In this document: positions 4,310 through 15,902 of the stretch, one piece after another
How positions within the stretch are numbered: position 1 is the stretch's first letter
Layout of the letters: each line of letters opens with the position of its first letter
Source of the DNA: a virus
Reading direction: 5' to 3' (one strand)
DNA length: 25,493 nt
Virus record (IMG/VR): IMGVR_UViG_3300042355_000114
Span: 1-25,493 of that record
The notes under the pieces: generated by a model
Told to the model about the DNA's origin: nothing
What the model saw: the letters and a program-made list of their open reading frames with translations, nothing else
Database searches by the model: none
Program-made: the position numbers and the translations under genes

Positions 4310-6490
4310 TTACATACCTTGGTTTGGTGGCGGCATTATTTCAGGTGGCATCATCATTTCCTGCGGCTCCATTGGCATAGAACTCATCAGATCACCGCTG
4401 GTAATCATGCCTTGCACAGTACCCAGCACAATCTCTTGTATCTGGTCAGGCGTCATGGCAGCGGCCATTGCGGTCATGCGTTTGGTTTCTACATCGTAGG
4501 CTTTAACCTCAGAGTCAAACCGCTTGATCTCCAAAGTCTGCGCTTCCATTGACTCTTGGACGTTTTGCAGCATTTCTTGCATCTGCTGCATTTCCTGCCC
4601 CATTGCCTGCATCTGCATATTGGCAGCTTGCAGGGCTGGGTCTTCATCGTCGCTCAAGAGTTTGGGGTCAATGGTCTTAGCCAGCCGTTTAGCTAACTCA
4701 TCTGCCCCAGGCCAATCCATTGCCTTAACAAACAAGTCGCCTGCAATCTGCATAAGCGCCGGGTTGCCTTGCAGCAGTTGGGCCATTTCTTCTCGTGTCT
4801 CTTGGCGTCTGGTGCTGTAGCTGGGGCCGGTCGTCACCACCACATCGTACTTGCCAACATTGGGGTTGTAGATTTTGTCAATCTCAATGCCTTCTTGATT
4901 GACGATCCGCTTGACCGGCATCTCTTGCGACGGGTCAATCTTTGCCATCTCAGTATCGCCGTCCTCACCAATGATTCGGGCAATACGCTGGGTATCGTAG
5001 ATTTTGGGGATCATGTCCACCAGTTGCCGGGTCACATAGCGTATGGCACGGGCTAAGTTGTCAACATAGTGATAGGTTCCAACGTCACCCTCGCGCTGAC
5101 GGGCTAGGATGGCCTTGCCGCTGCGCTCGTTACCGCCCATGCCCAGACTAGCGTTGTACTGCCCGGTTGCGGCTTTAATGTCTTCAGATGCCCCCGATTT
5201 GGCTTGCAAAAGGCCACTAGAGGCCATCGGAGGCTGGGCACGTTGTGGCAGTGGCAGAGTAGCGCCAGCGCCATCAGTCACATCTGGGTTGACCTCAAGG
5301 TAGGGCCAGTTGGTGGTGTTGGCTGTCTTCCACTGAGTCTCGTACCCCTCGAACTGCCCACCGTAGCCAATAAACGGAGCCTTGGGCGCCAGGGCCAGCA
5401 TCTCAGCTTCCTGGCTCACCCAATAGTTGTACATCCGCTGGGCGTCCTTGGCATTCCGCACCAAACCCGAGACATAAATCTGCCCGTTGACCTCAAACTC
5501 ATTGCCCACCACCCGCACAATGGGGATGTACTTACCCGCCCAATCGCGCTTCTCCAGCACCTCGTAACCGTTGGTCTTGACCCAGCAAACCTTTTCCCGC
5601 TGCGAAATCCGAGTCTTTAACGGCTTGCCGTAAAGCATCTTAAGTTGCTTGTCATCAGGCGTGTTATTAAACGCCGTGATGTTGTTGGGGTACAGGTTGA
5701 GTGTCTCGGCCTTGTACTCCCGATAAAAGTACTCCGCAATCCGGACAGTCTCATCGCGCAGCCATTGCTGTAGGTCTTGATCGCCAATCCCAAGGGACTG
5801 CAAACTACTGATAGGCGCAGCGTCTGGGTACAGGCGCTCGTACTCGTCTTTCGGTACATCGTCAGTGACAAAGCACCACCGCGCATCCGCACCGCATGGG
5901 TCTTGGATTGCAGGATCCATGTAGACCGAGAATGAGTTGCGAATTCGGCCAATCTTGAGTTCCTGGTCAAAGCTGTTCTCATCGCAGTACTCAGTTAGTA
6001 CCCGAATGTAGCCTTCGCCATAGGTAACCTGGTTCTCGCAGGCGGTTGCGTAGGCAATGTCAGCGTCACTGATGTACTCAATGTGCCGCACAATACCGTT
6101 GAATATCTCCGCCATCTCAGGGTCAGCAACGTCATCCGCAGGTATAACTTTGCCGCTGGGCTTGTTGTACCGTTGGTCGTTGGTGACTTGCCGAACGTGC
6201 TGTGGCAGCTTGTTGATAGTCAGGCAGGGACGGGCGTTGATAGTCTGCCCTTGGACGGCCCCGCGAGTCGCCAGTACATCAGCAGGCCACTGCCACTGGT
6301 TGTCTGGACTACCCGCCATAAACCTCAGGTCATCGAGTTCATTGTTGCGCGAGTCGCTAAAGGCATCTATCGCCATCGTCATGCGCGAACGCATGGTGGA
6401 CAGCATATCGCCGTACTCTTTGTCGTCGCCGCCGCCCCCACCAACATCGGCAACCTTGCCAACCTTGTTAATGCCGGTGTAGTCAGCCAT
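4310..6490 (-). CDS. Portal protein, P22 gp1-like
   Basis: The product is 726 residues, essentially the length of P22 portal (725). The N-terminal region (about 35-110) holds RFMAGSPDNQWQW and RPCLTINKLPQHVRQVTNDQ, and residues 140-215 hold the YGEGYIRVLTEY and SVYMDPAIQDPCGADARWCF segments typical of P22-like portals. The C-terminal 100 residues are Met/Gln-rich helix (QAMGQEMQQMQEMLQNVQES), matching the long helical barrel of this family, and finish in a Pro/Met tail. Twelve copies would form the DNA channel at one capsid vertex, where TerL docks during packaging. The start codon shares one base with the stop of the 42-residue gene upstream (TAATG). Identity is confident; what is unusual is that a fibre block, not scaffold, follows it. 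Confidence 0.93.
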   Translation of the reverse strand: MADYTGINKVGKVADVGGGGGDDKEYGDMLSTMRSRMTMAIDAFSDSRNNELDDLRFMAGSPDNQWQWPADVLATRGAVQGQTINARPCLTINKLPQHVRQVTNDQRYNKPSGKVIPADDVADPEMAEIFNGIVRHIEYISDADIAYATACENQVTYGEGYIRVLTEYCDENSFDQELKIGRIRNSFSVYMDPAIQDPCGADARWCFVTDDVPKDEYERLYPDAAPISSLQSLGIGDQDLQQWLRDETVRIAEYFYREYKAETLNLYPNNITAFNNTPDDKQLKMLYGKPLKTRISQREKVCWVKTNGYEVLEKRDWAGKYIPIVRVVGNEFEVNGQIYVSGLVRNAKDAQRMYNYWVSQEAEMLALAPKAPFIGYGGQFEGYETQWKTANTTNWPYLEVNPDVTDGAGATLPLPQRAQPPMASSGLLQAKSGASEDIKAATGQYNASLGMGGNERSGKAILARQREGDVGTYHYVDNLARAIRYVTRQLVDMIPKIYDTQRIARIIGEDGDTEMAKIDPSQEMPVKRIVNQEGIEIDKIYNPNVGKYDVVVTTGPSYSTRRQETREEMAQLLQGNPALMQIAGDLFVKAMDWPGADELAKRLAKTIDPKLLSDDEDPALQAANMQMQAMGQEMQQMQEMLQNVQESMEAQTLEIKRFDSEVKAYDVETKRMTAMAAAMTPDQIQEIVLGTVQGMITSGDLMSSMPMEPQEMMMPPEIMPPPNQGM

Positions 6491-6930: not shown

Positions 6931-7185
6931 TTAGCACTTCCATCGTTTAAGGGCTGCTTTAGCACGTTCGCCATCTTTGGCATTCGCCGCTACTGCACCC
7001 ATTCTTGCACAAAATGAATCCTTGCGGCCTTGGTCTGCCTTGGTCTTGGGGTTAGGCGCAGGAGCCTTCAAGTTAGAGCCAGTGGCTGCATTGTAGACAG
7101 CCCTACCCTTGGCAGTCAAACCAGCGCCCTTGGACGTTGGCAGCTTCTCGCCACGCCCAACTGATAGAGATACGTTTTTCTTCAT
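6931..7185 (-). CDS. Small basic DUF6321-like phage protein
   Basis: The product is 84 residues, starting MKKNVSLSVGRGEKLPTSKG. The motifs GRGEKLPTSKGAGLTAKGR, TGSNLKAPAPNPKT and the C-terminal RAKAALKRWKC correspond to a conserved phage family I know as DUF6321, of unknown function. A further in-frame ATG at 7197 would add four residues; the start at 7185 is preferred because it makes the usual ATGA overlap with the TerL stop and has GGGG just upstream. Two Cys (in SFCARMG and the last residue) are conserved in my memory of the family and could bind a metal. It is the first of four consecutive tiny basic genes between terminase and portal. Confidence 0.75.
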   Translation of the reverse strand: MKKNVSLSVGRGEKLPTSKGAGLTAKGRAVYNAATGSNLKAPAPNPKTKADQGRKDSFCARMGAVAANAKDGERAKAALKRWKC

Positions 7186-8729
7186 GACCCCATCCATCCA
7201 GTAGATACCGCCGAGTGATCCGAGTACCTGCGCGGCGCGGCTTCACGGTACTCCCGATGCGCCACAGGGAAAGCAAACGTCACGCATATCGCATCCGCAG
7301 CGTCTGGACTGGCTAAACCTCGGGCTTTCATTTCTTTCTTGCTCTCCAAGAAGATCGTACCCCGTGAGTCAGGCTTCATTAGGGGGCTAATAAGGTCTGT
7401 TTTAAGAAACCTATCCTGCGGAATACTAGCAGATTTCAACCACGCTTTCATATCACCCCACATCTGCGCCCTCATATTTCCATACATTATCGGGTTTTTG
7501 GACTTGTTCCCAAAGTTTACCCCCTTGATCTTGTACCGCTGCTCCTTGAGCCTATCCACAATCCCCGCCCCCAGCCCACCCTCATCAATCACCACCATCG
7601 CAGGCTTGTACTCCTCCATTGCCTCAATGATATGCCCCACCACCGTCATGGTGTCATCACCTCTATACTTCTTTATAGACACAATATCCCGCCCCTGCCG
7701 CACCGCAATCACCGTCGCATCAGCCCCAAATCGCGCAGGATCCACACCAATGATGATAGGCGCTGAGTTGTCCTTGTACTTAGGCCGTTTCATCGCCTCA
7801 TCCACCACATCTGACGGTATAAACTGGTCATCCCCCGCCCGTGGGAACTCACCATACACCTCAACGTGCGCCTGGGCGCTGTCCGGCCCGTATTCATCAA
7901 TAATCCGCCCATAAACCGCCTTGTCCGTACCCTCCACCGTCCTCGCATCCACCACCTTAGTCACCCAAAAGTCCCTCTTTGAGTGAAAAGTCTCGTAAAA
8001 GTACCCCGTGTTGCGCCGTGGGTTAGAAAACGCCAGCCAAAAACGATTCGGCGTGTTCTCCGTGAAGAATCCACCAGTGACAGACCAAATGCTGTCATCA
8101 ATACCTGACGCTTCGTCAAAGATCACCAGCACACCGTCAAAATTGTGTACGCCAGCATAGGCATCTGGGTTCTCCGCTGACCACAGCCTGCCTTCTACAC
8201 CCCAATACCTTGTACCCTTCTTTAAATCCTGCTCCACCAGGTCAGTCAACCATTTAGCCGGCGCCACTCTGGTGGCACTAACTTCAAACCAGTGGCTGTT
8301 CAACCCCATAGCCAGCCACTTGGTTATCTCCGCCCAAGTAATGCTGCGTAACTGATTCTCCGAGTTAGCCGAAATAATGGTTGTGCTGCCAATACGAGTT
8401 GACACCATCCATATAGTCAGCCATGACACTAATGCTGACTTACCAATACCCCGTCCAGAAGATATTGCTTCTTGCAATACGCTGTACATTATCTCTTCGT
8501 TAGATTTACTCTCACCATTTATTTTATTCTTTGCAATATGCTCAGTAATATCTTGCAATACTTCCCTCTGCCATTTTCTTGGGCCAGAGAAATACTCCAG
8601 TGGAGTACCCTTAACTCCCCAAGGAAACAAATACTTAACAAAAGCCAGAGGATTATCTTTTAATGCAGGACTCCAAAGTACCGCCATTAACTCCTGCTCA
8701 TCTTCTGGTTTATATATTGTGGTTTGCAT
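7182..8729 (-). CDS. terL: Terminase large subunit
   Basis: A 515-residue packaging motor. The N-terminal ATPase domain has a Walker A-like loop at residues 91-99 (SGRGIGKSA) and Walker B at 200-206, with the acidic pair of FDEAS (D205, E206). The adaptor segment about 228-240 reads RFWLAFSNPRRNTGYF. The C-terminal RNase-H-like nuclease domain shows IIIGVDPARFGADATV with D330, VVIDEGGLGAGIVDRL with D382, and SPDAADAI with D476 and D479, the usual acidic metal ligands. It cuts concatemers and drives DNA through the portal, and the P22-type portal suggests headful packaging. The ATG at 8729 has no clear Shine-Dalgarno sequence and follows an AT-rich stretch, so translation may be weak. All key residues are present. 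Confidence 0.95.
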   Translation of the reverse strand: MQTTIYKPEDEQELMAVLWSPALKDNPLAFVKYLFPWGVKGTPLEYFSGPRKWQREVLQDITEHIAKNKINGESKSNEEIMYSVLQEAISSGRGIGKSALVSWLTIWMVSTRIGSTTIISANSENQLRSITWAEITKWLAMGLNSHWFEVSATRVAPAKWLTDLVEQDLKKGTRYWGVEGRLWSAENPDAYAGVHNFDGVLVIFDEASGIDDSIWSVTGGFFTENTPNRFWLAFSNPRRNTGYFYETFHSKRDFWVTKVVDARTVEGTDKAVYGRIIDEYGPDSAQAHVEVYGEFPRAGDDQFIPSDVVDEAMKRPKYKDNSAPIIIGVDPARFGADATVIAVRQGRDIVSIKKYRGDDTMTVVGHIIEAMEEYKPAMVVIDEGGLGAGIVDRLKEQRYKIKGVNFGNKSKNPIMYGNMRAQMWGDMKAWLKSASIPQDRFLKTDLISPLMKPDSRGTIFLESKKEMKARGLASPDAADAICVTFAFPVAHREYREAAPRRYSDHSAVSTGWMGS

Positions 8730-8840
8730 GGTGTGAGTATGTTAATAAAAAATGGCAACGGAGAGAATATATATTAAAAAAATAAAAAACGTTCACGAGC
8801 CATCCGTAACCGTGACCACAGCCGCTCGGCCCTCCCCCCC
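8730..8840 (-). other. AT-rich gap between TerS and TerL, possible weak terminator
   Basis: This is the only sizeable gap inside the packaging operon (111 bases). On the minus strand, just after the TerS stop, there is a G-rich stretch, then an imperfect short stem (TCACG ... CGTGA, about 5-6 bp) followed by the run TTTTTTATTTTTTT, which resembles an attenuating rho-independent terminator. Next comes an AT-only patch (AATATATATT). A weak terminator here would lower TerL relative to TerS. The stem is short, so this is tentative. Confidence 0.3.
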
Positions 8841-9332
8841 CTATTCTTGGTCGGCGTCATCATGCACAGCTTGCACAATAGATGCACTCAGCCGCGGTGT
8901 AACGTCCACAACGTCCACAAGGCGCGCCTGGGCAGCGGCGAGCGCTCCACTAATACTAATACGGGTGTCGGACACGGACACGTCTAGGCGATCGCCATAG
9001 ATTTTTGGTGCGAGCTTGCTGAGAAACCATTTTCGGGTATCGACCTGTAGCTGGCGCTGACGGACCATGCCGGGGTCGGTCGCTCCGTTGTCTAACTTAG
9101 CTACTGGTGCATCCGCCAGTTCTAAGATTTCATCAGCCATTTTGTCTAAAAGAGCTTGACGCGCACGGGCGTATTGTTTTGCTAGTTCGGGGTCGGCGTC
9201 AACCGCCCGAAGGAACCTAGCCGGGTCTAGGCCTGTTTTAATGCATGCCTTGCGAAGTGACAACCCTTCAGACACCATTAGGTCAACCGCCAAGTTAGAC
9301 AGTTCTGCCCTTTGATCTGTTACACCATACAT
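8841..9332 (-). CDS. terS: Terminase small subunit
   Basis: The protein has 163 residues. Residues 10-45 form a helix-turn-helix-like unit (LSNLAVDLMVSEGLSLRKAC then GLDPARFLRAVDADPELA), the DNA-recognition part of small terminases. Residues 48-120 contain the oligomerisation segment with ALLDKMADEILELAD, DPGMVRQRQLQVDTRKWFL and KLAPKIYGDRLDV, signatures of this phage TerS family. It recognises the packaging site and regulates TerL, whose gene follows. Translation should be efficient: an almost perfect TTAGGAGGT lies six to eight bases upstream of the ATG. It is the first gene of the leftward operon and faces the control region at 9333-9646. Confidence 0.88.
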   Translation of the reverse strand: MYGVTDQRAELSNLAVDLMVSEGLSLRKACIKTGLDPARFLRAVDADPELAKQYARARQALLDKMADEILELADAPVAKLDNGATDPGMVRQRQLQVDTRKWFLSKLAPKIYGDRLDVSVSDTRISISGALAAAQARLVDVVDVTPRLSASIVQAVHDDADQE

Positions 9333-9646: not shown

Positions 9647-9904
9647 ATGTCGTATTCTGAAATGAACCGCACCACTTACATGGCGCATCGAGCCAGCATC
9701 CGCGCTAATGGTGAGCGTCACGGCTTGAAATGGATTGAGTGCCCATTAGAGCGCGCCGATATGCAACGTCTTTGCAATCAAAACTATGACCACTTGCTGC
9801 AGCGTCTGGCCTATGTCAAGCTAGGTACGCCCGAACTGGCGCGTAATGCCCTCATGTTGACCACTCCATTTAAAACAAGTGAAGCCACACGTTTTGGTGC
9901 CTGA
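9647..9904 (+). CDS. Hypothetical protein, first gene of the rightward operon
   Basis: An 85-residue protein starting MSYSEMNRTTYMAHRASIRA, with AAAGGA about ten bases ahead of the ATG. It is polar and mostly helical, with a Cys in IECPLERADM and another in RLCNQNYDHL. There is no membrane segment or recognisable domain. Residues 8-60 carry several Arg and His, compatible with a small nucleic-acid or protein-binding helical fold. As the first gene after the palindrome-rich region it may be an early gene. I do not recognise it. Confidence 0.6.
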   Translation: MSYSEMNRTTYMAHRASIRANGERHGLKWIECPLERADMQRLCNQNYDHLLQRLAYVKLGTPELARNALMLTTPFKTSEATRFGA

Positions 9905-12224: not shown

Positions 12225-12422
12225 CTAAAAGGGTACTTCCCAGACCCACAAGTCGCAACCCCCAGGTTCATTTGCAAACTCTGGTGACGGTGCATCGCCA
12301 AACTCGGCGCAAACCCCGTCGGGCCTGTAATAGTCGCAAGTATGGCAAACCCTTGGCGGCTCGGCCTTCAAGGTGGCGCGGTAGTGTGTAACGATTGCGG
12401 GTTCTGGGTGACGGGTATTCAT
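12225..12422 (-). CDS. Small Cys-rich probable zinc-binding protein
   Basis: A 65-residue protein starting MNTRHPEPAIVTHYRATLKA. Four Cys are arranged as CHTC at 26-29, C38 and C56, with aromatic residues around them (CDYYRPDGVC, CDLWVWEVPF), suggesting a single zinc site. An ATG at 12431 is in frame, but the one at 12422 makes the ATGA overlap with the helicase stop and sits at a better distance from AAAAGGA. Small zinc proteins of this kind often sit between helicase and nuclease genes in phage operons. No function can be assigned. Confidence 0.6.
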   Translation of the reverse strand: MNTRHPEPAIVTHYRATLKAEPPRVCHTCDYYRPDGVCAEFGDAPSPEFANEPGGCDLWVWEVPF

Positions 12423-14008
12423 TGGTTCCATGTCCTTTTTAGTACGGTAAAAAAACGGCCTTCACGCTTAAATTCAACGGCGCTCGGTGGCCTGCCCTCG
12501 GTCATTTGCTGGGCCATCTGGTGCAGTTCCGATACCCCATAGTCCAGCGTGACGCCTGCCTGATGGGCAACCTCGGCCAGCAGCCTGCGCGACTTTTCGC
12601 CTGCGTACCCGTCGTGCGTCACTGCCAGATATTCGGTCACTGGCGGGTCTGACAGACCACCGTAGTACGTCACGCTCAACATCTCCCGGCCACTGGCTCG
12701 GCTTATATGCTTGCGCCATGTCCAGCTACTGACTTCCAAGTCAGTACCGTCCTGCCCCATAATGTCCAGATTGTGCAGGCGCAGCGCGGGGCGCTCGGGT
12801 TCGGGGAATGCCTCACCACAAGCCGGGCAGACCCTCACCGATAAGGCGCAGATTTCCTGACAGTGGTCACACACCTTCACCGGCGCTTCGCCCTGCTTGT
12901 CTCCCTTCTTTGGTGGTGGTCGTACGGCAGTGATTGGCCCATGCTGTTCCACCACGCCAGCAAAGTCTAGGACTAGGCAGTCAGTCTTACCCGGCGCGAT
13001 CCGCAGGCCACGCCCGGCCATCTGCACATACAAGCCGGGACTCATGGTTGGCCTCAGCATAGCTATCAGATCAATCCCAGGCGCGTCGAAACCCGTTGTC
13101 AATACGTTGGCATTGGTTAAGGCCCGAATGCGCCCCTGCTTAAAGTCGGTCAGGATGCGGTCACGTTCATTGCTTGGCGTCTCGCCGGTCACGCATTCAG
13201 TGTTGATGCCTTGGGCTTGCAATGCGGTGGCAATATGCTGGGCATGGGCAACCCCGGCGCAAAATATCAACCAAGACCGGCGCTCGGCCCCCAGGCGCAC
13301 TATCTCAGCAGCCACCTTTCGGTTTTTGTCGGTGGTGTCCACCGCAGCCTGTAATTCGGCCTCGATGTACTCGCCGCCACGCTTATGCACCCCGTCCACT
13401 TCCAACTTGGTGGTGGTAAGTTTGCTTCTCAGGGTTGATAGAAACCCTTTGTGAATGAGTTCCTCAATGCTCACCGGCTCAATCAAGGCGTCGAATATGG
13501 CGGGTTTGTCGGTAATGTATCCGTGGCCCAGGCGGTAAGGCGAGGCGGTCAGGCCTATCACCCTCACGTTCGGATTTGTCCGATAGATGTCCGATAGAAG
13601 TGTCCGATAGCCGCCTTCATCCTTGTGGCTCACCAGATGAGCCTCATCTATGATAACCAAGTCAACATGGCCTATTTCCTTGGCCTTGTTCCTGACAGAT
13701 TGGATGCCTGCGAAGGTTATCGGTTCGCCCAATTCTTTCTGGCGCAACCCGGCAGAGTAAATGCCCATTGGCGCGTTGGGCCAGTGTTGGCGCATCTTTT
13801 CGGCGTTCTGCTCAATAAGTTCGCGCACATGGGTCAGCATCAAGATGCGAGTTTCGGGCCAAGATTGCAGCGCGTCCTTGCACAAGGCGGCAATGATGTG
13901 AGACTTACCTGACCCGGTTGGCAGCACCAAACAAGGGTTGCCGGTGTTGCCTGCCTCGAACCATGCGTAAAGTTGATCGATGGTGCGGGTTTGGTAGTCA
14001 CGGAGCAT
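12419..14008 (-). CDS. SF2 DEAD/DEAH-box helicase with zinc-finger insert
   Basis: The product is 529 residues if it starts at the ATG at 14008, which has GGGGGA upstream and shares one base with the methyltransferase stop (TGATG). Counting from one codon earlier, a TTG, motif I is PTGSGKS at 31-37, motif II DEAH at 122-125, motif III LTASP at 154-158 and motif VI QMAGRGLR at 330-337, all intact. At 381-398 CDHC and CPAC form a zinc ribbon; the C-terminal 130 residues are a separate domain not recognised. The family includes ResIII/RecQ-like phage helicases that act in replication initiation or recombination. Its neighbours, methyltransferase, Cas4-like nuclease and VRR nuclease, fit DNA processing. 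Restriction-enzyme R-subunit origin is possible but no nuclease or specificity part is present. Confidence 0.9.
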   Translation of the reverse strand: MLRDYQTRTIDQLYAWFEAGNTGNPCLVLPTGSGKSHIIAALCKDALQSWPETRILMLTHVRELIEQNAEKMRQHWPNAPMGIYSAGLRQKELGEPITFAGIQSVRNKAKEIGHVDLVIIDEAHLVSHKDEGGYRTLLSDIYRTNPNVRVIGLTASPYRLGHGYITDKPAIFDALIEPVSIEELIHKGFLSTLRSKLTTTKLEVDGVHKRGGEYIEAELQAAVDTTDKNRKVAAEIVRLGAERRSWLIFCAGVAHAQHIATALQAQGINTECVTGETPSNERDRILTDFKQGRIRALTNANVLTTGFDAPGIDLIAMLRPTMSPGLYVQMAGRGLRIAPGKTDCLVLDFAGVVEQHGPITAVRPPPKKGDKQGEAPVKVCDHCQEICALSVRVCPACGEAFPEPERPALRLHNLDIMGQDGTDLEVSSWTWRKHISRASGREMLSVTYYGGLSDPPVTEYLAVTHDGYAGEKSRRLLAEVAHQAGVTLDYGVSELHQMAQQMTEGRPPSAVEFKREGRFFTVLKRTWNQ

Positions 14009-14885
14009 CAAAGTCCCCCAAGGAGTCGGTAGGCGGCAGCTGCTTGGAGCGGGACTTGCGCGTTACCCAATCCTTTGAGTCGGTGAACCCGATTGGGAAT
14101 CCCATCAGATGTTCTACCCACTGAGGGTTCAATCGCCCACCATCCTTCTCCACTGCCCAATCCAGCATATCCATGCGGCTCTTGCCGTCCTTGCGTATCA
14201 TTTGTCTCCCCCCCCCCTTGTGAATACGGGCCGTTGGCGTAGGCCACATCCGCACATAACCCGCAAGGCCAAGCATTGAGCTCGACCCGTCCTCGTTCTT
14301 CCTGCGAACCGTCCCCGTACTGGTCTGGAAATGTTTTCCGTGTTTCGCTCGGCGCTCCAGTTCGGGATCTGAGCTCGTCGGCGTAGGTAGCCAAGAGAAA
14401 CCATCTGTCTCTGTGATGCGGCGCTCCGACATCGGATGCGCGTATGCAAAGCCACCTTGTGTCATACCCCAGCGAGGCCAAGTCTCCAAGTACGGTTCCG
14501 AGTCCGTTAGAAAGGATTGCTGATACGTTCTCCAAGAACAACTGTTTTGGTCGTACCACGCTAGCGATTCGCAAGACTTCACGGTAAAGACCTGATCGGG
14601 TTCCATCAGATACGCCTGCTTGCTTTCCAGCGACACTAATGTCTTGGCAAGGGAATCCCGCATGAATAATGTCCACGATGCCGGTGTACTCGGATGGATC
14701 AAACAATTGAACATCCCCCTCCCACACTCGCAAGCCGGGGAACCATCCGTCTGCTGCGCGTTCTCTGAGGATTTGACAGGCATAGGCATCCCACTCAACA
14801 GCGACAACTGGGGTGTGTCCAAGGATGAGGTCGGCAAGGAGTCCACCGCCGTGACCTGCAAAAAGGTGCATGGTTCTTGTTTCAT
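13998..14885 (-). CDS. Overlapping second-frame gene within the methyltransferase gene (possible dual coding)
   Basis: This is an intact 295-codon frame on the same strand as the methyltransferase, shifted so that its codons begin at the second base of methyltransferase codons. Its ATG follows GGGGTGA by three bases, right after the Cas4-like stop. The product is not random-looking: SCSWRTYQQSFLTDSEPYLE (115-134), WPRWGMTQGGFAYAHP, then two WLPTPT/MWPTPT units (165-170 and 213-218), and at the end RLNPQWVEHLMGFPIGFTDS (251-270). From memory, proteins with repeated WPTP units and a terminal LNPxWVEWLMGFPxGWTD are abundant in phages and prophages and annotated as hypothetical. Whether it is translated is unknown; it may be a side effect of constrained methyltransferase codons. 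It overlaps the helicase start by eleven bases. Confidence 0.45.
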   Translation of the reverse strand: MKQEPCTFLQVTAVDSLPTSSLDTPQLSLLSGMPMPVKSSENAQQTDGSPACECGRGMFNCLIHPSTPASWTLFMRDSLAKTLVSLESKQAYLMEPDQVFTVKSCESLAWYDQNSCSWRTYQQSFLTDSEPYLETWPRWGMTQGGFAYAHPMSERRITETDGFSWLPTPTSSDPELERRAKHGKHFQTSTGTVRRKNEDGSSSMLGLAGYVRMWPTPTARIHKGGGRQMIRKDGKSRMDMLDWAVEKDGGRLNPQWVEHLMGFPIGFTDSKDWVTRKSRSKQLPPTDSLGDFDAP

Positions 14886-14913
14886 GTTTCACCCCACTAC
14901 CCTTCCATCCCAC
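14008..14913 (-). CDS. Cytosine-C5 DNA methyltransferase (Dcm-like)
   Basis: A protein of up to 301 residues. Counting from the ATG at 14913: motif I MHLFAGHGGG at 15-24, motif IV GFPCQDIS with catalytic C89, motif VI ENV at 128-130, motif VIII around HHRDR at 166-170, a variable target-recognition region about 175-255, and motif X GLGNAQVP at 281-288. It would transfer a methyl group from S-adenosylmethionine to C5 of cytosine in a short site, protecting phage DNA from restriction. No matching restriction enzyme is seen. The start is uncertain: ATG 14913 has GGAAAGAG upstream, GTG 14892 makes a GTGA overlap with the preceding stop, and ATG 14871 directly opens motif I. The gene is overlapped for nearly its whole length by another frame (13998-14885) and contains a G10 tract. 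Confidence 0.9.
   Translation of the reverse strand: MGWKGSGVKHETRTMHLFAGHGGGLLADLILGHTPVVAVEWDAYACQILRERAADGWFPGLRVWEGDVQLFDPSEYTGIVDIIHAGFPCQDISVAGKQAGVSDGTRSGLYREVLRIASVVRPKQLFLENVSAILSNGLGTVLGDLASLGYDTRWLCIRASDVGAPHHRDRWFLLATYADELRSRTGAPSETRKTFPDQYGDGSQEERGRVELNAWPCGLCADVAYANGPYSQGGGETNDTQGRQEPHGYAGLGSGEGWWAIEPSVGRTSDGIPNRVHRLKGLGNAQVPLQAAAAYRLLGGL
14208..14217 (-). repeat. G10 homopolymer inside the methyltransferase gene
   Basis: Ten consecutive C on the plus strand, ten G on the coding strand, encode the SQGGGE segment of the methyltransferase and, in the other frame, HKGGGR. Runs of this length slip during replication and are the classic switch of phase-variable methyltransferases in bacteria. 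A change of one base here would fuse the N-terminal part of one frame to the C-terminal part of the other or to the third frame. Confidence 0.85.
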
Positions 14914-15902
14914 TCTTTCCGCAACGCCATAACCTGCGGATCAGCAGCCACGCAGGCCGCAGCATTAGCCAGCAGTTCCTTTGACCCATACACCCCCTCA
15001 CCCGGCTCACCGTTGGCAATGCCTTGTCCTTCAATCTCATAGACTGCCACCCAATCGCTTGGCCCTTCCAAGCGTTTCCACGGCACCAAGTCAGGATGGA
15101 TAACGTGAGACTCGCAGCCTGTAAGTTGCGCGTCAGTTGGCACAATGGCGTCCCACTTGGCGCAGTGCCATGTCGAATCAGACAATGGCGTGATGTGGGC
15201 GCAGGTACGGCAGTTGACCTGCTTTGTGGTCTTTGACCCGTGGCAGAAGTCATGGCCTGCACACATCTTGCATTCAAACCAAGTCGGGTCAGTGCTTATC
15301 GGTGGTGGCAGGCGGTCAGTCAGCGCCAGCCTTTGGCCCTTGTCAATTGCCTTGATGGCATGGTCACGGTCATACTCCAGCCGCTCGGTGTAGATGCGGT
15401 CATCGTCTTTGCAGACGGCAACATACAAGGCGCGTTTCAGTTCAGTGCCGTGCATATAGACCTGACATTGGGTGTAGTGCTGGGGCTTAGACTTTGCCAC
15501 GCCATTCTTCTCTAAGTCATTGAATGACTTCAGCGAATGGGTCTTGAACTCCAGAACGTGTTCAGTCTTTGGCGCACCCAGCACACCCTTGCCAATACCG
15601 TCTAGGCTCCCGCTAACGTGACTGCCAAAGTTCACCCGGCGCTGGGTTCCTGATACGCTCATGCCAATAGCGCGGAGATCGCTGATGATTTGCGCTTCCT
15701 CATTGAAACCACGCCGGAACAGTCGCAGGATCCTGCCTTGGAACTTCTCAACCACCGCCCAGCGAAACGACAGCCAAAGCCAGCGTTCGCAGTGATGGCC
15801 CAACGTACTGCAACCCATGTGAGCGCGGGGCTTCTCGGCTCTTGATTGATGGGCGGAGTCAATCAATGAAGTTATGGTAATCTCTGGCTCTGGTATTTGC
15901 AC
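14889..15902 (-). CDS. Cas4/RecB-like PD-(D/E)xK exonuclease with Fe-S cluster motif
   Basis: The gene encodes 337 residues from a GTG start with CAGGAG eight bases upstream. C31 and C38 (CSTLGHHCERWLWL) lie near the N-terminus; the nuclease core shows SGSLDGIG with D101, VLEFKTH with E118 and K120, and QHYTQCQVYMH at 141-151; then CKMCAGHDFC at 211-220 and CRTC at 231-234 give a Cys cluster. One N-terminal and three downstream Cys around a RecB-type nuclease are the hallmark of Cas4/AddB-type 4Fe-4S nucleases. It would resect DNA ends for recombination. The second Cys pair and C247 may form a zinc site. Next genes upstream are DUF669 and Sak4-like, supporting a recombination role. Its stop overlaps possible methyltransferase starts. 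Confidence 0.78.
   Translation of the reverse strand: MQIPEPEITITSLIDSAHQSRAEKPRAHMGCSTLGHHCERWLWLSFRWAVVEKFQGRILRLFRRGFNEEAQIISDLRAIGMSVSGTQRRVNFGSHVSGSLDGIGKGVLGAPKTEHVLEFKTHSLKSFNDLEKNGVAKSKPQHYTQCQVYMHGTELKRALYVAVCKDDDRIYTERLEYDRDHAIKAIDKGQRLALTDRLPPPISTDPTWFECKMCAGHDFCHGSKTTKQVNCRTCAHITPLSDSTWHCAKWDAIVPTDAQLTGCESHVIHPDLVPWKRLEGPSDWVAVYEIEGQGIANGEPGEGVYGSKELLANAAACVAADPQVMALRKEWDGRVVG

Follow-up and report, generated by a model that had tools for sequence, protein, structure and literature searches.

We propose that the run of ten G residues on the coding strand of this viral DNA is a slippage-prone contingency site with three states, situated in a phage C5-cytosine methyltransferase of the two-polypeptide type whose subunits are encoded in overlapping reading frames; we place the probability of this reading at roughly 0.7. 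The run looks like a natural switch, and probably a reversible one, with reversibility within a single phage being an inference. The proposal draws on the tract itself, the conservation of both frames, natural alleles of three kinds, tract-length polymorphism between copies with identical flanks, observed at the level of contigs only, and off-phase copies at one of the tract sites (site 3) that have not decayed.

The window, i.e., the whole stretch of DNA that was analyzed, is a viral record, 25,493 bases long, whose genes include portal, terminase, Cas4-type exonuclease, Sak4-like and primase. On its plus strand, positions 14,208 to 14,217 are ten C residues, equivalent to G10 on the coding (minus) strand, and the run is indeed where the sequence-only reading had placed it. 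The premise of that reading, namely that the gene is dual-coding, also holds, since the run is read as Q-GGG-E in one frame (frame B) and as K-GGG-R in the other (frame A; Table 1). No other G or C run of at least nine occurs in the window, the next longest being the C8 at 8834–8841. A run of ten G has an expectation of 0.07 per dinucleotide-preserving shuffle and was present in 7 of 100 shuffles; further, runs of seven G are not in excess, with the six observed matches being reached by 27 of 100 shuffles. By itself, then, the run is only moderately improbable and amounts to mild evidence; hence, the case rests on its relatives. The C8 just mentioned (G8 on the minus strand) lies at the end of the gene for the terminase small subunit (8841–9332, minus strand), which lies upstream of that for the large subunit (7182–8729, minus strand).

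Table 1. Coordinates in the window of the tract, the two overlapping genes, their motifs and their neighbors.
Feature	Positions	Strand	Basis or remark
G10 tract	14208..14217	(-)	Three Gly codons in both frames: A Gly224-226, B Gly233-235
Frame B (alpha), C5-cytosine methyltransferase, 301 aa	14008..14913	(-)	PF00145, PHROG_363, AlphaFold
Catalytic PCQ, motif IV, B residues 88-90	14644..14652	(-)	Alignment; G9-G17 follows in other contigs (site 2)
Motif X, B residues 282-289, GLGNAQVP	14047..14070	(-)	Conserved in alignment, AlphaFold model
Frame A (beta), 295 aa, ATG start, motif-IX-like block NPQWVEHLMGFP	13998..14885	(-)	PHROG_1008
Motif IX block, A residues 253-264	14094..14129	(-)	Conservation and comparison with L292
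Helicase gene, downstream neighbor	12419..14011	(-)	Pfam and gene context
Cas4-domain exonuclease gene, upstream neighbor	14889..15902	(-)	Context

Frame B, which starts with a GTG at 14,913 (an ATG of the same frame lies at 14,871), matches PF00145 (1.3e-33) and PHROG_363 (2.9e-59) and carries motifs I, IV (PCQ), VI (ENV), VIII and X in one chain; the presence of motifs I, IV, VI and VIII together satisfies the definition of a C5-cytosine DNA methyltransferase. The residues G22 G23, P88 C89, E128 N129 and R168 R170 are invariant across 55 aligned sequences. The AlphaFold model of B, for which the top Foldseek matches are M.HhaI, is confident over approximately residues 11–190 and the motif X helix; it is of low confidence over 193–273, which is where the recognition domain would lie, B having been modeled alone. 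The tract falls in this low-confidence linker, between motifs VIII and X.

Frame A, in which the tract lies upstream of the motif IX block, matches PHROG_1008 (6.5e-25). It found no meaningful family in Pfam and no match among PDB sequences; its AlphaFold model, made of A alone and not of a complex, is poor (mean pLDDT 57) and yielded three Foldseek matches, none of them significant. Its best-conserved block, NPxWVEWLMGxP, is kept in the 55 aligned sequences. We identify this block as motif IX because a single-frame relative (L292) has an A-type block between motifs VIII and X of one chain (RLNPDWVEWLMGYPISWTD...MALGNSVVP). The dual genes thus depart from the monomeric layout, in which a single chain carries VIII, IX and X in that order, since their block is in frame A: going by the motif assignments, motif IX has a frame of its own in the dual genes and motif X stays in B. 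The shift from frame B to frame A is identical in 80 of 81 distinct loci with both signatures. In the 117 pairs that are intact, the third frame is never open, averaging 13 stops; the openness of the other two frames in this set is partly due to how it was selected. L292 itself (108–1160) contains motifs I–VIII, IX and X in one chain and has, open elsewhere in another frame, an A-like stretch (profile positions 106–239), which makes it a possible evolutionary intermediate.

Two-polypeptide C5-methyltransferases are already known from M.AquI and from M.EcoHK31I, the latter being coded in overlapping frames. In M.EcoHK31I, the larger chain has motifs I–VIII and X and the smaller one only motif IX (PMC3404938, of which a part was available), and the alpha and beta chains of the phage pair meet precisely this division. 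The phage form differs from M.EcoHK31I in being dual-coded over almost its entire length, and in that some phage lineages possess a frame-exchanging tract of G8–G17, nothing of which is mentioned for M.EcoHK31I in the available part of that source (PMC3404938). The two protein families matched by frames B and A, PHROG_363 and PHROG_1008 (‘DNA methyltransferase’), are listed apart, and the descriptions returned for them contain neither the overlap nor the tract.

The flanks of the tract in the window (site 1) recur in seven other viral contigs; with the window included, five copies have G10 and three have G9. The G10 copies keep both frames. In the G9 contigs (L007, L008 and L009), which come from three datasets and have common substitutions not found in the G10 copies, upstream B runs into downstream A to give 304 codons, such that the catalytic half of B is joined to the C-terminus of A, with A itself reduced to 229 codons; both downstream frames are still open. 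The G10 and G9 sister lineages are ~95% identical at this site, and tract length tracks lineage (G10 in 5/5 and G9 in 3/3); hence, frequent switching is not shown in this group. At the homologous KGGG site, G10 is also seen in two further lineages (L109–L111 and L184), within different flanks, and a member of the first of these, L118, has G8, with A joined to the C-terminus of B and B shortened. The truncations and fusions that the sequence-only reading had predicted from slippage therefore exist as natural alleles in both directions, and the comparison of relatives that it called for did reveal different lengths (G10, G9 and G8) at this site, as well as differences between identically flanked copies at a second one. 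It had also held that mixed Gly codons in relatives would speak against the run. This is borne out in part: in L112 and L113, of the same lineage as L109–L111, the run is lost through an interrupting substitution, and B of L113 retains GGG via a mixed codon; A then reads KGVG, and Gly-Gly-Gly in both frames can be written only as a homopolymer. Altogether, seven of ten copies at site 1 are in phase, two are B-to-A and one is A-to-B. Matches with G3 to the site-1 flank pattern (L053, L082 and L096) were taken as chance. In L006 (2973–3876), unrelated sequence takes the place of the target-recognition stretch that surrounds the tract site, with both flanks and both frames kept, which is an exchange of the recognition cassette within a dual-coded gene.

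For a family-wide view, a motif IX pattern scan that is independent of G tracts recovered at least 120 stretches. Sorting of loci with the A and B profiles gave 226 with a B N-terminus, 159 of them complete, corresponding to 128 distinct sequences in 99 clusters; the 128 include overlapping pieces of one contig (e.g., L112/L191), and L312 (G10, A-to-B) is not among them, as it lies outside the complete-gene filter. Both frames are intact in 117, B alone is broken in six, with A intact and no tract, and both frames are swapped in five. Such swaps occur in 5/17 sequences with a run of at least eight G as against 0/111 without one (Fisher P 2e-5), and each of the five has the run at the swap point; in the sample not chosen for tracts, among the matches listed, the corresponding figures are 2/7 versus 0/60 (P 0.009). 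Runs of at least nine G number eight in the 117 dual genes (110 kb, among the matches listed), all of them G on the sense strand, as against six G or C runs in 920 kb of the same contigs outside the dual genes (Poisson P 9e-7) and an expectation of 1.0 under a Markov-3 null; unrelated contigs, at lower GC, have two in 591 kb. Thus, the family displays the enrichment of long, uninterrupted coding tracts over background that is expected of a contingency locus, and the supposition of the sequence-only reading that poly-G is rare in phages does not extend to this methyltransferase family. L223, L233, L236 and L270 have an interrupted B next to an intact A, without any G tract, and represent other routes to breaking or splitting alpha.

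The named-collection records examined comprise 11 cultured phages, three plasmids and one environmental genome. Both frames are unbroken in 13 of these 15 and one frame is broken in the other two (L494 and L496); the only run of at least seven G is the G8 of Synechococcus phage S-H1. Most phage and plasmid records examined (L199, L198, L494 and others) name just one of the two overlapping methyltransferase genes; both frames are annotated in Escherichia phage K1ind1 (‘Mte8-like’), a Paenibacillus phage and a mycobacteriophage. A pattern scan of genome contigs gave one match, in a Terriglobia MAG, which appears chance-like, and the site-2 tract was found in 0/297 genomes of the phylum of that MAG.

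Beyond the site seen in the window, tracts occur after PCQDIS (site 2, scanned at a threshold of at least nine G) and after motif VIII (site 3, at least ten G), with 106 and 69 stretches found, respectively, and lengths from 9 to 17. All 91 distinct site-2 tracts (95, depending on how duplicates are removed) and 63 of 65 at site 3 lie within dual-coded genes; this is informative since the search patterns were not restricted to dual genes, though both use C5-methyltransferase motifs. At site 2, 63 of the 91 are in phase, eight are B-to-A, 15 are A-to-B and five are incomplete. Site 3 looks randomized among the three states (18 in phase, 18 B-to-A and 19 A-to-B, with nine incomplete and one other).

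The alternative that survives best, which we nevertheless regard as unlikely, is that the tracts are merely mutational hotspots: glycine-rich loops under dual coding would force G homopolymers, and slips in them would break a dispensable methyltransferase without any switch being selected. Given that GGG in both frames requires a homopolymer, the G10 may be a by-product of dual coding at site 1, where interrupted runs also exist (L112 and L113), and many dual-coded genes do without a tract, 111/128 sequences having no run of at least eight G and 14/15 named records none of at least seven. Against this, the variable position of the site-2 loop is seldom Gly (four of 78 genes, with Lys in 52), and where Gly does occur it is always encoded by an uninterrupted run of G9–15; with loop length constant when in phase (11 residues in 53/55), the sequences of this loop argue for the run itself rather than the residue. 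Nor do tracts of 14–17 G fit a mere hotspot, as an interruption would stabilize them. Further, the off-phase copies at site 3 are not decaying, for away from contig edges all four frame arms are open in 16/16 B-to-A and 14/15 A-to-B copies, just as in 16/16 in-phase ones. The same four-arm test at site 2, where the profile match is often broken downstream, was passed by 18/54 in-phase, 2/6 B-to-A and 8/13 A-to-B copies.

Considerably harder to sustain is the view that the tracts are real but of fixed length, with the scatter arising from library PCR or assembly stutter. The tract data are indeed from metagenome contigs, the exception being L380, an off-phase G9 copy whose record number resembles that of an isolate genome; longer tracts scatter more at site 3, and PCR or Illumina stutter at G12–G15 could yield part of this scatter, chiefly there. 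Yet short site-2 tracts are mostly in phase (28/30 at G10), which means that the G10 length calls are not random, and the G9 haplotype of the window's group comes with its own linked substitutions in three datasets. Tract records with a readable state form 52 pairs whose flanks match to 97% or more; length differs in 36 of these and state in 32. In five pairs, each from two datasets, the flanks are 100% identical over 416–600 nt and the tract length alone differs: L256/L406 (G15/G13), L329/L401 (G14/G15), L338/L391 (G17/G10), L347/L412 (G11/G12) and L395/L410 (G15/G13). Hence, length does differ between otherwise identical copies, and the frame with it, with identical flanks at site 2 and up to 99.5% identity at site 3; copies that are identical or nearly so are separated by as much as seven G (G17/G10) or three G, unlike the plus-or-minus-one pattern of stutter, which is least able to explain this seven-G difference and the lineage-linked G9 alleles. 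Slightly less credible still is programmed slippage by polymerase or ribosome, whereby one DNA length would give alpha, beta and the fusions together and DNA length would matter less: at site 3 both downstream frames are open at any length, so that a slip would in every case yield a long product, and homopolymers are slippery for both machineries (reported for poly-AT in the available part of PMC3711429), but the observed lengths cover all residues modulo 3, a variety for which a programmed site has no need, and in most relatives the alpha and beta frames are intact although no run is present.

Under the three-state reading that we favor, slipped-strand mispairing during phage DNA replication would most likely alter the tract length, and because one-G insertions and deletions move ribosomes between the frames, the locus would have three states. 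In phase, as with the G10 here, separate alpha (motifs I–VIII and X) and beta (the target-recognition region and motif IX) are predicted. With one G fewer (G9), the catalytic half of alpha would be linked to that end of beta which carries motif IX, and beta truncated; this B-to-A fusion would have the motif order of the monomeric enzyme but would lack motif X. With one G more or two fewer, the first half of beta would be followed by motif X of alpha, and alpha would end after motif VIII (after motif IV at site 2); such an A-to-B state should be inactive and is probably off, the activity being inferred. Inference likewise underlies the enzyme states and the methylation phenotype as a whole, including the supposition that only the in-phase state, and perhaps also the alpha–beta fusion, methylates, and the same applies to the idea that a single phage population switches often and reversibly. 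The likely benefit, for which we infer that selection maintains the tract, is variation of the modification against host restriction or methyl-dependent defense. Only tentatively, and with more doubt than conviction, do we extend this to the suggestion that each one-base step brings the halves of two conserved proteins into new pairings, such that genomes specifying a two-chain enzyme, a fused one of altered activity or specificity, and none at all always coexist as bet-hedging against these host systems.

Descriptions of phase variation mostly concern cellular bacteria. If our reading is true, tailed phages switch the modification of their own DNA stochastically, through a poly-G contingency locus present at three or more sites in one viral gene family, with over 150 distinct tract records, and the overlapping frames would make the switch join two proteins instead of merely stopping one. 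Phasevarions and type III mod methyltransferases, in which changes in homopolymer length alter the reading frame (PMC3711429), and other phase-variable poly-G/poly-C methyltransferases resemble the phage locus in that tract length sets the methyltransferase frame; to the extent that the partial sources describe them, the phasevarion and type III mod systems are cellular and on/off, whereas the neighboring frame in the phages is long and conserved, such that a shift links two proteins. A closer likeness in outcome comes from Helicobacter canadensis, where poly-G tracts late in genes alter the C-terminal sequence without stopping expression (PMC2823697, available in part); these alternative C-termini differ mostly by a few residues, whereas in the phages the other frame encodes a conserved subunit that has a motif of its own. 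Among the titles and opening lines of abstracts retrieved from the open-access literature, none reports poly-G switching of a phage methyltransferase or frame exchange between overlapping methyltransferase genes.

Two further tracts were noticed outside the dual-coded genes. The contig L256 has a second G10 (9739–9748) in another DNA methyltransferase-like gene, recognized by eye from an LLTDPPYN motif; tracts may thus also occur in methyltransferases outside the C5 family. In L061, a G9 relative, a G9 at 5324–5332 lies in a different gene, the start of whose translation is, again by eye, PP-loop/PAPS reductase-like.
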